The notes beneath the pieces are model-generated. The model searched no databases and was not told the DNA's origin. It saw only the letters and a list, made by a program, of their open reading frames with translations. Made by a program: the position numbers and the translations under genes. From Opitutaceae bacterium (GTDB lineage: Bacteria > Verrucomicrobiota > Verrucomicrobiia > Opitutales > Opitutaceae), in the NCBI GenBank assembly GCA_003164715.1, contig PLTZ01000019.1, forward strand, positions 84,419 through 148,418: a DNA stretch of 64,000 nt, read 5' to 3'. Numbering within the stretch: position 1 is the first letter of the stretch; each line of letters starts with the position of its first letter. Positions 18,264 through 25,510 of this stretch are shown in pieces.

Positions 18264-19349
18264 ATGCAAAAGATCTTCCAGGTAGGTTCCAAGACATTCG
18301 TCCTCGATCAGGCGAAGGCGGAAGCCGCGTTCGCGGGAAAGCGCGTGATCAACGGACGCGAGACGATGACCTTCAATCTGCTGCCGCTGAAGTACCAGTG
18401 GGCCTACGACCTTTACCGCAAGATGAAGGCCAACCACTGGGAGCCCGAGGACATCCCGATGGGCAAGGACATCGAGCAGTGGCGCGACGCCAAGGCCGTT
18501 TCGGATGTCGAGCGCTGGATCATCCGGATGGGCATCGGCTACTTCTCGGCCGCCGAGGGGATCGTGGGCGACAACATCCAGCACGTGGTGCGGGAGCTGG
18601 TCACGGCCCCGGAGTTGAAGCTCGTCCTCGGGCGGCACGCCCACGAGGAGAATATCCACGCGGATTCCCTCCTCTACATGATCGCTTCGCTCGGGATCAA
18701 TCCCCACGAGTGCGAGGCGATGTTCGAGGACGTGCCCACCATCGTGCGCAAGAACGAATTTGTAACGCGGATTTCACGCGAGCTGCGCCGGGACCTCGAC
18801 CTCACCAAGGCGGAGAACAAGAAGCTCCTGGCCTCGAACATCTTCGTGTTCGGCCAGTGCATGGAGGGGACGCAGTTCTACGGCCTCTTCGGGATGATCC
18901 TTTCGCTCTACCGGCAGAACAAGTTCCCGGGCATAGGCCAGATGTTCAGGTACACCCTCAGGGACGAGTCGAACCACATCGAGGTGTTCCGCAACCTGTT
19001 CATGGACTTGGTCGAGGAGAACCGCGAGATCTGGTCGCCCGAGTACAAGGAGGAGCTCCGCGGCCTCATGCGCGAGGCGGTCTCCCTGGAAAAGGACTTC
19101 ATCCGCGACTGCCTGCCCGTCAACGCGGTGGGGCTGCGGCTCGAGGATTTCCAAACCTATATCGACTACATCGCCGATCGCCGCCTCGAGGGCTGCGGTC
19201 TGGCGCCGCTGTCCGGCGGCATCAAAAATCCCCTGCCGTGGCTGGCCGAGATGATGGACATCGCGAAGGAGCAGAACTTCTTCGAGGGCAGGGTCACCGA
19301 GTACCAGAAGGCTTCCTCATTGACGGTCGCATCGGACGACGAGCTCTGA
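18264..19349 (+). CDS. nrdB: ribonucleoside-diphosphate reductase small subunit R2, class Ic-like
   Basis: Diiron-carboxylate fold motifs YFSAAEGIVGDNI, HEENIHADSLLY, GQCMEGTQFYG, RDESNHIEVFRNLF; adjacent to R1. Confidence 0.92.
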   Translation: MQKIFQVGSKTFVLDQAKAEAAFAGKRVINGRETMTFNLLPLKYQWAYDLYRKMKANHWEPEDIPMGKDIEQWRDAKAVSDVERWIIRMGIGYFSAAEGIVGDNIQHVVRELVTAPELKLVLGRHAHEENIHADSLLYMIASLGINPHECEAMFEDVPTIVRKNEFVTRISRELRRDLDLTKAENKKLLASNIFVFGQCMEGTQFYGLFGMILSLYRQNKFPGIGQMFRYTLRDESNHIEVFRNLFMDLVEENREIWSPEYKEELRGLMREAVSLEKDFIRDCLPVNAVGLRLEDFQTYIDYIADRRLEGCGLAPLSGGIKNPLPWLAEMMDIAKEQNFFEGRVTEYQKASSLTVASDDEL

Positions 19350-19502: not shown

Positions 19503-22500
19503 ATGAACAATATTCCGCTGGCTCATGACCTCGCCCTCAAGCGCACGGTCCACGCCCCCGTTGATCAGAAGCATTTGTACGCCTGGCGCGACGTGATTGC
19601 TCCGTCGGACATCGCGCTGCCATCGATCGTCCTATTGTGCCCGCATGGCGAGGAGCGATTCGACATGACCGAGGTCGCCGACACGCTGGGAAAGGCGCTC
19701 ACGAATGTCTACATCTCCCAGGGGGAGAAGGAGATCTTCACGGAGAAGAACCGGAACTGGGTCGCCCAGATCTGCCGGGAGCTTGCGGGGAACCTGACCG
19801 AGATGGCCCGCAAGCAGAACCCCCTGCGCCTCACGCTGAACGGCCTCTACGAGCTGATCGAGAAGACCTTGGTCGACAACAACGCCTACATGGTGGCGAA
19901 GAGCGTTCTGCTCAACCGCTCGCGCAAGATCTCGGTGAGCCGCGAATCGGCCGCCCAGAGCACGGTCCGCGTCATTCGCCGCAACAGCCAGATCGTGCCG
20001 TGGAACGACAGCAAGGTGGAGATCGCGGTGCGGAAGACCTTCCTGTCGCAGGCACGCGACTCCGCCCCGGCGGTCGCGATCGCTAAGGCGGTTTCGGAGA
20101 GGGTCCATGCGTCGAACCAGGCCTTTGTAAGGATCGAGGAGGTCCAGGACATCGTCCAGGAGGAGCTCATGAAGGCGGGCCACTTCAAGGTGGCCGAGGC
20201 CTACATCCTCTTCCGGGCGGAGCGGGCGGCGGCCCGCCAGAACGGGGAGTCGGAGACGTTTGAGGTGACGCTTGAGAAGGCGATCGGGACCCAGGGAGTC
20301 CTGGTCGTGGTCAAGAAGCCGAGCGGGGAGACGATTCTCTGGGACGGCGCCGACCTGCGCAAGAGGATCGAGTTCGCGATGACGGGCCTTGAGCTCTGCC
20401 TGACACCCGAGGAGATCGAGTTTGAGCTCAGGAGGGCCATCTACGACCAGATTTCCCAGAAGGACCTGGATGCGACCATCATCCTCAACTCCAAGACCCT
20501 CATCGAGAGGGACGCGGACTTTGCGAAATTCGCCGGGCGGATCCAGCTGACCTACATCTACGAGGAAGTGCTCGGCTGGGACATCCTGCGCGACGGCATC
20601 AGCAAGCTAAAGGAATGCCACCGCAAGGCGTTCAAGAAGTACATCGAGCACGGGATCGCCATCAAGCGCCTCAATCCCCGCCTTCTGGACTACGATTTGC
20701 AGAGGCTCGGAAGCGCTCTCGACCCGTCGTCGGACCTGGAATTCGACTTCCTCGGTGTGCAGACGCTCTACGACCGTTATCTGATCGTGGACAAAGTCTC
20801 GAAATCGACGCGGCGGATCGAGACACCGCAGTTCTTCTGGATGCGCGTGGCTATGGGGCTCTTCCTTGATGAGAAAGGGGACCGTGAGTCCAAGGCCAGC
20901 GCGCTCTACGATCTCTACAAGACCCGTCGATTCTGCTCGTCGACGCCCACGCTGTTCAACAGCGGGACTCTGCACAGTCAGCTGAGCTCATGTTATTTGT
21001 ATCATATTGACGACTCGATAGAAGGGATATTTCAAAGAGGCATTGCCGAGAATGCCTACCTCTCGAAATGGGCGGGCGGCTTAGGCGGGTCATGGACCTC
21101 CGTGCGCGGCACAGGTGCCTATATCGGAGGCACGAACGGCGAGTCTCAGGGCGTCATCCCGTTCCTTAAGCTCCACAACGACCAGCTTGTCGCCGTGAAC
21201 CAGTGCTTTGGACCGGACACGGTCGTCTACACGGCGGACGGGCCCAAAGCGATCCGCGACGTGAAGCAGGGCGACCTGGTGCTTGGGGATAGCGGCACCT
21301 ATCGCGAGGTGACCGAGAAGTTCGCTTACGACCAGCATGGCCCGATGGTGGCGGTGAAGATCAAGCACTCGGTTGCTCCGATCCGGGTGACGACCGGGCA
21401 TCCATTCTATGCCATTCGCGGCGTGCCAATGGAGCAGGCCTGCGCCCGCACCATGCAGTGGCTGGCCAAGGGCAAGGTGCGCACCCAGTGGATCGACGCG
21501 GGCGAACTCCGGCCGGGCGACTATGTCGCGCAGACGATTCCCACTCAGGTCATCCCGGCCGAGGGCTTCTCAGAGGAAGACGCGCGCATGTATGGAATCC
21601 TTCTCGGGGACGGGCACCTTTCAAAGAACGGCCATCAATGGGGCGTTTCCGGCCACCCACAGCGCGACGAGCACATTGAGTTCGTCCGGCAGTACCTCGC
21701 CGACCGCGGAATTCACTCTTGGGAGACGGGACGCGGGGAGACCTACCTGCAGGTAAACTGGGCCAGTGGGCGAGGGGTGGTGCGCGACGGGACCACTGGG
21801 CGCATCGCTGGGGCAGGGGAAGCGACGATGCCCTTTGGTCACGAGGATCTCTACGACGACAAGGGCAGAAAACGCATTTCGCGCCGTTTCTCGCACCTTC
21901 AGCATGGGCACACTCGCGCTTTGGTGCAGGGCCTATTGGAAACAGACGGCGGGGTTTCCCGCGGCAAGGAGATCTACTTCACCAACACGTCGCAGCCGCT
22001 TGTCGAGGGACTCCGCTACCAGCTCCTGCGCCTTGGAATTCCAACAGCCGGCCAGTTCCGCAGGAGGGACATCTCTCACGAGGGCCGGCGTTCCGACGGT
22101 TCCACCGTCAGCTTCACGGGGTTTAGCGACTGCTATGATGTCCGGATTCCCGCGGTAATGGAGATTGCCACCCTCGTCGACTGCAAGCCGCTCACGAAGA
22201 GGAACTGGATCACCCACGATGGATGCGTCTATTCGCGGGTGAGGGATGTATCCGGCGTCGAGCCCGATCCGTTCGTCTTCGATCTCAAGGTCGAGGGCGA
22301 CGAGACCTACATGACCAACGCGGCCTTGGTCCACAACGGCGGCAAGCGCAAGGGTTCCGGGTGCGCCTACCTGGAGAGCTGGCACAACGACATCTTTGAG
22401 TTCCTCGAGCTGAGGAAGAACACGGGCGACGACCGCCGCCGGACCCATGACATGAACACGGCGAACTGGATTCCTGACCTGTTCATGAAGCGAATGGAGG

Positions 22501-23963
22501 TCCGGGGCTCGTGGACGCTATTCCGCAGCAACGAGGTGCCCGATCTCCACGAGACTTTTGGCAAGAAGTTCGAGGACCTCTACCTCAACTACGAGAGGCT
22601 GGCCGAGGAGGGGAAGATCTACGGGCATAAGATCGAAGCCCTGGATCTCTGGAAGAAGATGCTCTCGATGATCTTCGAGACCGGGCACCCATGGATAACG
22701 TTCAAGGATCCGTGCAACGTGCGTTCGCCACAGGACCACGTTGGGGTGGTTCACTCATCAAATTTGTGTTCGGAGATCACCCTGAACACGTCCAAGGAAG
22801 AGACCGCGGTCTGCAACCTCGGATCGGTGATCCTTGAGACACATCTTCTTCCTGACGGATCGATCGACCACCGAAAGCTTCGCGAGACGATCCGGATGGC
22901 GGTGCGGGCATTGGACAATGTGATCGACATCAATTACTACCCGACCGAGGCCGCCAAGTGCTCGAACATGCGCCACCGGCCAATCGGCATGGGCGTGATG
23001 GGGCTTGCGAACACGCTCTACATGAAGGGCATTGCCTTCGCTTCGCCGGAGGCTGTGGAGTTCAACGATGAGGCGATGGAGGCGATCGCCTTCTACGCCT
23101 ACGAGGCGAGTTCCGACCTTGCGGCCGAGCGCGGGACCTACTCGTCGTACCGCGGATCCAAGTGGGACCGCGGCCTGCTTCCTCCCGACACGGTGGATCT
23201 CCTCGAGAAGGAGCGCGGGCTCCCGATCCAGGTGCCGCGCACCTCGCGGATGGACTGGACCCCGCTGCGGGCGAAGATCGCCGCGCAGGGCATGCGCAAC
23301 AGCAACGTCCTTGCCATCGCGCCCACGGCGACGATCTCCAACATCACGAACACCTCGCCCTGCATCGAGCCGACCTACAAGAACCTGTTCGTCAAATCGA
23401 ACCTCTCCGGCGAATTCATCGTGCTGAACCCCTTCCTCGTGAAGGACCTGAAGGCCCGCGGCCTGTGGGACCGGGACATGATGGACAGCCTCAAGTACTT
23501 CGACGGCGAGCTTAGGGATATCGAGAGGATCCCGGCAGACCTGAAGCAGAAATACCTCACGGCGTTCGACATCGACCACAAGTGGGTGATCGACGCCGCC
23601 GCCCGGCGCCAGAAGTGGATCGACCAGTCCCAATCCGTGAATCTCTGGATCAAGACGCCGGACCTGAAGACGCTCTCTCACATGTACCGCCATGCGTGGC
23701 ACGCCGGGCTCAAGACCACCTACTACCTGCGCGGCCTCGGGGCCTCCAACATCGAGAAGGCGACGGTCCAGGTGAAGAAGGAGATGCGCGGGGCAGCGGG
23801 GGAGACCAAGGCCGAGACGGCAACACGCGATGCGGCTAACCTCCTATCGACGCCGCCGTTTCCGACGGCAGAAGCGGCTCCGAAGCAGTACACCGCCGAG
23901 GAAAAGGTTGCGTGCTCGATTGAGGCGATGCGCAACGGCGGTACGTGCGAGGCCTGCCAGTAG
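19503..23963 (+). CDS. nrdA: ribonucleoside-diphosphate reductase large subunit R1 (NrdAz-like, several N-terminal ATP-cones), interrupted by an intein
   Basis: LSSCYLYHIDD, SSNLCSEITLNTSKEETAVCNLGS, RHRPIGMGVMGLANTLY, C-terminal GGTCEACQ; intein inserted at VAVNQ^GGKRKGSG. Confidence 0.93.
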   Translation: MNNIPLAHDLALKRTVHAPVDQKHLYAWRDVIAPSDIALPSIVLLCPHGEERFDMTEVADTLGKALTNVYISQGEKEIFTEKNRNWVAQICRELAGNLTEMARKQNPLRLTLNGLYELIEKTLVDNNAYMVAKSVLLNRSRKISVSRESAAQSTVRVIRRNSQIVPWNDSKVEIAVRKTFLSQARDSAPAVAIAKAVSERVHASNQAFVRIEEVQDIVQEELMKAGHFKVAEAYILFRAERAAARQNGESETFEVTLEKAIGTQGVLVVVKKPSGETILWDGADLRKRIEFAMTGLELCLTPEEIEFELRRAIYDQISQKDLDATIILNSKTLIERDADFAKFAGRIQLTYIYEEVLGWDILRDGISKLKECHRKAFKKYIEHGIAIKRLNPRLLDYDLQRLGSALDPSSDLEFDFLGVQTLYDRYLIVDKVSKSTRRIETPQFFWMRVAMGLFLDEKGDRESKASALYDLYKTRRFCSSTPTLFNSGTLHSQLSSCYLYHIDDSIEGIFQRGIAENAYLSKWAGGLGGSWTSVRGTGAYIGGTNGESQGVIPFLKLHNDQLVAVNQCFGPDTVVYTADGPKAIRDVKQGDLVLGDSGTYREVTEKFAYDQHGPMVAVKIKHSVAPIRVTTGHPFYAIRGVPMEQACARTMQWLAKGKVRTQWIDAGELRPGDYVAQTIPTQVIPAEGFSEEDARMYGILLGDGHLSKNGHQWGVSGHPQRDEHIEFVRQYLADRGIHSWETGRGETYLQVNWASGRGVVRDGTTGRIAGAGEATMPFGHEDLYDDKGRKRISRRFSHLQHGHTRALVQGLLETDGGVSRGKEIYFTNTSQPLVEGLRYQLLRLGIPTAGQFRRRDISHEGRRSDGSTVSFTGFSDCYDVRIPAVMEIATLVDCKPLTKRNWITHDGCVYSRVRDVSGVEPDPFVFDLKVEGDETYMTNAALVHNGGKRKGSGCAYLESWHNDIFEFLELRKNTGDDRRRTHDMNTANWIPDLFMKRMEVRGSWTLFRSNEVPDLHETFGKKFEDLYLNYERLAEEGKIYGHKIEALDLWKKMLSMIFETGHPWITFKDPCNVRSPQDHVGVVHSSNLCSEITLNTSKEETAVCNLGSVILETHLLPDGSIDHRKLRETIRMAVRALDNVIDINYYPTEAAKCSNMRHRPIGMGVMGLANTLYMKGIAFASPEAVEFNDEAMEAIAFYAYEASSDLAAERGTYSSYRGSKWDRGLLPPDTVDLLEKERGLPIQVPRTSRMDWTPLRAKIAAQGMRNSNVLAIAPTATISNITNTSPCIEPTYKNLFVKSNLSGEFIVLNPFLVKDLKARGLWDRDMMDSLKYFDGELRDIERIPADLKQKYLTAFDIDHKWVIDAAARRQKWIDQSQSVNLWIKTPDLKTLSHMYRHAWHAGLKTTYYLRGLGASNIEKATVQVKKEMRGAAGETKAETATRDAANLLSTPPFPTAEAAPKQYTAEEKVACSIEAMRNGGTCEACQ
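21204..22337 (+). mobile_element. In-frame intein (378 aa) with LAGLIDADG homing-endonuclease motifs, inserted in nrdA
   Basis: N-terminal CFGPDTVVYTADGPKAIRDVKQGDLVLG (block A), VTTGHPFYAI (block B, TxxH), MYGILLGDGHLS and LVQGLLETDGGVS (dodecapeptides), VFDLKVEGDETYMTNAALVHN (blocks F/G). Confidence 0.93.
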
Positions 23964-23979
23964 GGCGCCCCATCTTGAC

Positions 23980-23993
23980 AAACAGGCCTGTTT
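23980..23993. promoter_or_regulatory. 14-bp perfect palindrome AAACAGGCCTGTTT, putative operator of the first TA module
   Basis: Palindrome abuts TTGACA (23975-23980), just upstream of the antitoxin ATG; half-site GCCTGTTT repeated downstream. Confidence 0.55.
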
Positions 23994-24009
23994 ATCTAGC
24001 CTGTTTGGC

Positions 24010-24261
24010 ATGAAGACCGTTGATGCCTCTATGGGCGCCTTTGAGGCCAAAAACAGGTTTTCCGAACTCCTCGAACGTGTGGGCCGAGGGGCCGAGATAA
24101 CCATTACAAAACACGACCGTGCGGTTGCCCGGCTGGTTCCGGCCGTCTCGCAGACCAGCGATAGACGCAAGCGAGCCACTGCGGAACTTCGGGCGCTGCG
24201 TGCGCGTTACAGTCTGAAGGGACTTTCGGTGCGAGGCCTGATCGAGCAGGGTCGGAGATGA
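24010..24261 (+). CDS. Phd/YefM-family antitoxin (TA module 1)
   Basis: MKTVDASMGAFEAKNRFSELLERVGRGAEITITKHDRAVARLVPA. Confidence 0.85.
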   Translation: MKTVDASMGAFEAKNRFSELLERVGRGAEITITKHDRAVARLVPAVSQTSDRRKRATAELRALRARYSLKGLSVRGLIEQGRR

Positions 24262-24674
24262 GTGAATTTGTCCTAGACTGCTCCGCTACCGTTCCCTGGG
24301 TATTTGAGTCCGAGACAACCCCGGAGACCGATGCATTGCTCGATAGACTTGCCGCGGGCGATAAGGCATGGGTGCCTGCACTATGGCATCTGGAGTTGGC
24401 CAATGTGCTGCTGGGGGCTCAACGCAAGGGGCGAATTGATAAGGCGGGCATTGAAAAATTCCTATCCGCATTGAACGTCTATGACATTGAGGTGGATTCT
24501 GAGACAATGGCCTTGGCTTGGTCGAAGACGCTGGCCCTCGCGGAAAGCTTCGGTCTCTCGCTGCACGACGCCGCATACCTGGAACTGGCACTGCGTCGCG
24601 GATTGCCGGTTGCGACTCTGGATAGGCCCCTGCGGGCGGCCGTTCAAGAGGCAGGCGGCAGTCTGGTGCTCTGA
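24258..24674 (+). CDS. PIN-domain VapC-like toxin (TA module 1)
   Basis: FVLDCSATVPWVF...HLELANVL...LSLHDAAYLELAL...ATLD acidic PIN motifs; overlaps antitoxin stop (ATGA). Confidence 0.87.
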   Translation: MSEFVLDCSATVPWVFESETTPETDALLDRLAAGDKAWVPALWHLELANVLLGAQRKGRIDKAGIEKFLSALNVYDIEVDSETMALAWSKTLALAESFGLSLHDAAYLELALRRGLPVATLDRPLRAAVQEAGGSLVL

Positions 24675-24737: not shown

Positions 24738-25157
24738 CTATCCCGCCAGGGGCAGGCCCAGTTGCTCTGCCGCCCGCAGCATCCGGACATCCTTGGTGAA
24801 CAGGGGGCCCACCTCGGCACTCAAATATGTTGCCAGGTGAAGCGCATCAAGCGCGCGCAGTGAAACCTTGGGATGCAGCTCATTCAACAGTTCGGTGGCG
24901 TCCTGAACGATCATGCCATCCAAGGCAAGGAATCGGATCTTTTGGGCCACGATGCGTCTTTCAAACTCCTGCCACACCTCAGTCCCCAACCCGGCAGGGA
25001 TAACTCCCCGTGACACTTTGCCAAGGATGGCAGAACGAAGCTCGCAGTAGAGCAGCCGAGACGAAACCAGCGTGGTTCCGGAGACAATTGCCTCGCAAAG
25101 CTCCGAATCAGGCTCCGCCACAAAAAGCTTCACCATCACCGAGGTGTCGACGTACAT
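24738..25157 (-). CDS. PIN-domain VapC-like toxin (TA module 2)
   Basis: MYVDTSVMVKLFVAEPDSE...CELRSAI...SLRALDALHLATY. Confidence 0.87.
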   Translation of the reverse strand: MYVDTSVMVKLFVAEPDSELCEAIVSGTTLVSSRLLYCELRSAILGKVSRGVIPAGLGTEVWQEFERRIVAQKIRFLALDGMIVQDATELLNELHPKVSLRALDALHLATYLSAEVGPLFTKDVRMLRAAEQLGLPLAG

Positions 25158-25161
25158 GGCG

Positions 25162-25491
25162 TCAATAGCCGCTGTCCCGTTCCGCCCGGAGGATTGGGGC
25201 CGAGTCTTCGACTATGGTTGTCTTCTCGCGAAGAGCCCGCAGCGACGTCCATTTGGCCCCTTGGATCATCGGCCGATAGCGCACGATCATTGCCTTAGGA
25301 CGGCCGTCACTTGTGACCACGATTCGTTCCCCTCGCTCGGCGCGGTCGAGGAGGCTCGACAACCGATCCTTTGCCTCGCGCACATTGACAACGTCGCACA
25401 CTATTCCATAGACGGCCGCGGCCTCCTTTATTGAGAGCTCCTGCGCTTGCGCCTCCGGGTAGGTCGAGCGGATTCTTCGGTTTCTCTTCAT
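25162..25491 (-). CDS. Phd/YefM-family antitoxin (TA module 2)
   Basis: VVNVREAKDRLSSLLDRAERGERIVVTSDGRPKAMIVRYRP; ATG at 25491 preferred over the 25509 start. Confidence 0.8.
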   Translation of the reverse strand: MKRNRRIRSTYPEAQAQELSIKEAAAVYGIVCDVVNVREAKDRLSSLLDRAERGERIVVTSDGRPKAMIVRYRPMIQGAKWTSLRALREKTTIVEDSAPILRAERDSGY

Positions 25492-25510
25492 GTGGCCATA
25501 TGTGGCCACA
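25491..25510. promoter_or_regulatory. tandem 10-bp repeat TGTGGCCATA/TGTGGCCACA at the start of TA module 2
   Basis: Two TGTGGCCA copies exactly 10 bp apart overlapping the antitoxin start; candidate autoregulatory operator. Confidence 0.4.

Follow-up and report, generated by a model that had tools for sequence, protein, structure and literature searches.

The window analysed here is the whole 64,000-nucleotide stretch of contig PLTZ01000019.1 from an Opitutaceae bacterium, and it contains an nrdA gene, encoding the large subunit of ribonucleotide reductase, that lies directly downstream of nrdB and is interrupted in frame by a LAGLIDADG-type intein (Table 1). Pfam and NCBIfam models match the reductase large subunit on either side of the insert and LAGLIDADG_3 within it; the Hint/Intein_splicing Pfam matches to the intein lie under the curated cut-off. 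At the N-terminal junction ...LVAVNQ runs into CFGPDTVVYT, and at the C-terminal junction AALVHN is followed by GGKRKGSGCAYLE. A preliminary description of the locus had placed a 378-residue intein here with blocks A and B, the aspartates of both LAGLIDADG motifs and a terminal His-Asn, and all of its coordinates and motifs were verified. Immediately 3' of nrdA are two pairs of a Phd/YefM antitoxin and a PIN-domain toxin arranged back to back, at 23890-24671 (+) and 24741-25509 (-).

Table 1. Coordinates in the window of nrdA, the parts of its intein and the adjacent nrdB
Feature	Position	Strand	Description	Evidence
nrdA ORF	19503-23963	+	1486 aa	
nrdA N-extein	19503..21203	+	567 aa, end ...LVAVNQ	
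LAGLIDADG-type intein	21204..22337	+	378 aa, Cys1 to Asn378	
Block A	21204..21233	+	CFGPDTVVYT	intein alignment
Block B	21390..21401	+	TTGH, Thr63 and His66	intein alignment
LAGLIDADG motif 1	21588..21623	+	MYGILLGDGHLS, Asp136 retained	
LAGLIDADG motif 2	21921..21959	+	LVQGLLETDGGVS, Asp248 retained	
Block F	22275..22310	+	VFDLKVEGDETY, Asp360 at F:4; Glu replaces the usual block F His	
Block G	22326..22337	+	LVHN; penultimate His377, terminal Asn378	
+1 codon	22338..22340	+	GGC (Gly), where Cys, Ser or Thr is usual	
nrdA C-extein	22338..23963	+	GGKRKGSGCAYLE...CEACQ	
nrdB	18264..19349	+	small subunit (Ribonuc_red_sm), immediately 5' of nrdA	

A deep AlphaFold2 model of the intein (pLDDT 91.7) predicts a standard intein with an endonuclease, combining the Hint fold and LAGLIDADG endonuclease expected of a class 1 intein, and the structures nearest to the model are PI-SceI and TliVMA. 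The Cys at position 1 (Cys or Ser in class 1), the block B TxxH and the C-terminal Asn are those of the same class, and the insert lies in frame in a conserved host protein, is absent from close relatives and leaves the host motif restored upon excision. The departure from class 1 is at the +1 position, where Cys, Ser or Thr is expected and Gly is present in the window intein and in every member found at this site. Assignment to class 2 (Ala1 with Cys+1) is ruled out by the presence of Cys1 and Gly+1, and assignment to class 3 (no Cys1, a WCT motif and Cys at F:4) by the presence of Cys1 in 100% and of Asp at F:4 in 99% of the site members.

The position of the C-terminal junction is defined by relatives with an empty site. 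The intein is present in 4 of 13 genomes of the genus, that of the window and three others whose copies have 79-84% protein identity to the window intein. At every empty site read in the same genus and family, LVAVNQ or LVAINQ is followed directly by GGKRKG or GGKRRG, and the sequence of the solved P. aeruginosa-type NrdA (PDB code 5im3) is VNQGGKRKG in the same place. With VNQ or INQ running straight into GGKR in the intein-free relatives, there is no Cys, Ser or Thr onto which the junction could be moved. Alignment with intein-free NrdA homologues, named in the preliminary description as one way to refute its reading, does not move the junction and bears out its statements that excision restores VNQGGKRKG with well constrained boundaries and that the residue after the terminal Asn is Gly.

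The same copies bear on the reading of the insert as a dead intein or a sequencing or assembly artefact, with nrdA a pseudogene. The source is a draft assembly, which would allow for such an error, but the frame has no stops, the three further genus copies are independent, purifying selection is evident and an identical arrangement occurs in the complete Azotobacter vinelandii genome (L140), whose copy has been described in print as an intein (PMC4465626). The intein dN/dS within the genus is 0.05-0.11, similar to the host gene, with dS near saturation; for the exteins the values are 0.05-0.07, again with dS near saturation, in pairs without L004, which were left out as an indel inflates their values. 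The artefact reading is already contradicted by the independent copies and has a negligible probability.

Large scans with a degenerate DNA pattern for HN^GGKR(K/R)G(A/S) (^ marks the junction), in which HN and the +1 Gly are preset, illustrate the extent of the family. The pattern matches 24 viral stretches, 23 of which show an intein-like end and then reductase, and at least 108 genome stretches, almost all with the same arrangement. Once the window and the other carriers of its genus are added, the scans give at least 108 complete inteins at the site, 104 of them distinct, and among those listed 60 are exactly 378 residues long. The carriers listed comprise viral contigs and at least six bacterial phyla (Pseudomonadota, Actinomycetota, Chlamydiota, Verrucomicrobiota, Acidobacteriota and Omnitrophota); many of the host genomes are metagenome assemblies, and cultured strains are included, for example the complete A. 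vinelandii CA genome. No isolate phage among those searched carries the intein, and no useful relative came to light when the intein sequence by itself was compared with viral contigs, phages, plasmids and the PDB. As a check that is independent of the junction, 274 Azotobacter-class genomes and viral contigs were compared with a profile built from intein sequence only. Full-length site members, each counted once, number 24 and come from 7 of the 274 genomes (the seed being among the 7) and from viral contigs, most of which are those of the pattern scan; one member, L223, reads GGGKRKG and is new. All 24 have Gly at +1, and homologous inteins elsewhere than this site have Cys, Ser or Thr. The details given in the preliminary description for the Gly+1 intein are correct; what it could not show is the scale, as the intein belongs to a widespread family in which more than 100 other genes share the site and the Gly. 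The Gly+1 inteins may have arisen once, a reading with which the tree is compatible.

The last Gln of the N-extein aligns to Gln288 of yeast and human R1 (in the human R1 alignment Gln288 is the chain numbering plus 73). Gln288 and Arg293 form part of loop 2, the link between the specificity site and the active site, in which the Gln points at the substrate (PMC3267527; PMC3483043). By this alignment the intein sits within loop 2, the specificity loop, straight after the Gln288 equivalent. The two Gly residues after the insertion point are imposed by the host as part of an invariant Q-G-G, and Gly+1 is forced because the insertion point falls inside this motif. A Cys, Ser or Thr left over in loop 2 would probably harm the enzyme. 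Since some of the same NrdA chains hold a second intein with a canonical Thr+1 (SNLC^ site) or Cys+1, the Gly reflects the site and not the organism; two-intein or same-host examples are L105, L071, L114, L134, L148 and L050. Within the genus, relative L004/L105 has the additional canonical Thr+1 intein at SNLC^ in the same nrdA, and in relative L005 (minus strand) it is a third position in nrdA that holds an intein, with Cys+1 (SSC^F...AHN^C), the loop 2 site being empty.

Residue conservation was compared across the 104 distinct members at positions that do not depend on the search pattern. Cys1 is present in 104/104, Thr63 in 98% with Ser in its place in 2%, His66 in 100% and Asp360 (F:4) in 99%. 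The homing endonuclease Asp136 or Asp248 is lost in 16 distinct members, and all 16 retain every splicing residue. A reduced or decayed endonuclease is seen in the site members L116 (288 aa), L114 (309 aa), L038 and L039, which would lend themselves to compact constructs for splicing work. The block F His, thought to assist Asn cyclization, is present in 3/104 members and missing in 101/104, where the residue is mostly Glu, and this is evidence against a ligation route. Its loss was considered as a signature of Gly+1 inteins and rejected, as some canonical inteins are also without it (13 of 19 controls keep the His, these rows being non-independent and Fisher values for them therefore set aside).

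The sequence evidence taken together makes it probable that the insert is a true homing intein, able to excise itself and reunite the two parts of NrdA although +1 offers no side-chain nucleophile; both the ligation and the following order of steps are what we infer. Cys1, aided by Thr63, His66 and Asp360, would form the N-terminal thioester, cyclization of Asn378, aided by His377, would release the C-extein, and the freed α-amine of Gly+1, kept in the Hint active site, would then attack the thioester. The Gln-Gly joining would restore loop 2 (VNQGGKRKG), with the small Gly as a presumably favourable acceptor. Thioester formation, Asn cyclization and amine attack in the absence of a +1 nucleophile make up the proposed route of type A BIL domains (PMC4031507), and by its sequence the nrdA intein has every residue that this route needs. 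A branched intermediate formed by way of a hidden side-chain nucleophile, in the intein or deeper in the C-extein, is very unlikely. Thr6, Thr10, Ser344 and Ser/Thr368 are well conserved and would be candidates for it, but the alignment rules out a hidden Cys, with none conserved other than Cys1 (Cys327 is at 67%), F:4 is Asp instead of the Cys of class 3, and the C-extein Cys at +9 is replaced by Ala in phage members.

In the window genome, which is 98.8% complete, the intein-bearing nrdA is the only class I/II ribonucleotide reductase gene detected, and no class III gene was found. No further class I/II gene is present in 10 of 24 other carriers tested, 7 of those 10 also being without class III, and the enzyme is the sole detectable reductase in the isolates Thiothrix lacustris, T. 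eikelboomii, Thiolinea disciformis, Macromonas bipunctata and Thiofilum flexile (genome completeness unreported). With no second ribonucleotide reductase detectable in the window genome or in at least five cultured isolates, processing must yield an active enzyme. One way for this to occur would be cleavage only, at both ends of the intein, with the two NrdA fragments reassembling noncovalently. The product of the type A BILs studied is mostly cleaved (PMC4031507), and one BIL needed a change of its +1 residue to Cys before it would splice, both of which speak against ligation. The split NrdA of phage Aeh1 functions as two chains (PMC3653736; PMC3267527). However, the active enzyme would then have to be one broken inside loop 2, right behind the substrate-facing Gln288 equivalent, in several lineages that depend on the intein-bearing NrdA as their only reductase, and essentially all members, including those with a dead endonuclease, retain the catalytic residues that each half of the reaction calls for; this reading is considered quite unlikely. 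Also unlikely is a mixed outcome of poor splicing and heavy cleavage in which the ligated enzyme is enough for life, perhaps gating the enzyme supply. This is a weaker version of the ligation reading with identical chemistry and fits the measured behaviour of type A BILs (PMC4031507), whereas the long retention of the intein in essential sole-copy genes suggests a bearable yield. Between the alternative splicing route and cleavage, the pair put forward in the preliminary description, the former is favoured by the sole-copy nrdA and by the splicing residues remaining intact despite endonuclease decay.

In standard accounts an intein cannot do without a Cys, Ser or Thr in the +1 position. Here a whole mobile family appears to dispense with the +1 nucleophile in a gene that cells cannot lose. 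If ligation is efficient, splicing can be efficient in the absence of a +1 nucleophile, and these inteins would offer a means of linking proteins at a Gly with no residual Cys, Ser or Thr. Several cultured isolates depend on the enzyme, so the question is directly testable in living cells. More tentatively, the loop 2 Gly+1 inteins could represent a distinct and stable lineage with efficient nucleophile-free joining by the Gly amine, spread by homing across phyla and phages and serving the sole reductases of free-living bacteria.

The Azotobacter nrdA intein (Avin_33290/Achr_15980; PMC4465626) occupies the identical gene and site (VNQ^C...HN^GGKRKG), has 378 residues and is 67% identical to the window intein (L140). 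It was published as an ordinary LAGLIDADG intein, apparently with no remark on the +1 Gly. No paper discussing Gly+1 at the nrdA loop 2 site was found in the open-access literature, nor any earlier characterization of such inteins of the kind that the preliminary description had allowed for. InBase may have listed the Azotobacter member as 'Avin RIR1 BIL'. Type A BIL domains have Cys1 and a C-terminal His-Asn with no +1 nucleophile (Amitai 2003, Dassa 2004 and Aranko 2013, cited in PMC4031507), a combination also present in the nrdA intein. BILs occupy variable regions of non-conserved proteins (PMC7765530). The nrdA intein, in contrast, is mobile and of LAGLIDADG type, and its fixed insertion point lies in the invariant loop 2 of NrdA, an essential protein. 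In the tree, which is short and weakly resolved, the three BIL-like rows included form a starred branch separate from the nrdA inteins. The Verrucomicrobiota proteins L179, L180 and L181 have a signal-like start, RGGGGC...VHN^KG and up to three tandem Hint domains, and are type A BIL-like with Lys at +1. Other reductase inteins (Thr+1 at SNLC^ and those at Cys+1 sites) share the host protein and differ in having a canonical +1 residue and a separate lineage in the tree. The class 1 LAGLIDADG inteins PI-SceI and TliVMA are alike in fold, domain layout and blocks A, B, F and G, and differ in that their transesterification relies on a +1 Cys, Ser or Thr. Its +1 residue keeps the nrdA insert out of the canonical class 1 inteins, and it is set apart from the BILs by its different context and by falling outside the BIL-like branch of that short, weakly resolved tree; to judge by its sequence, it is an intein in structure, mobility and site that, with Gly at +1, would work like a type A BIL.
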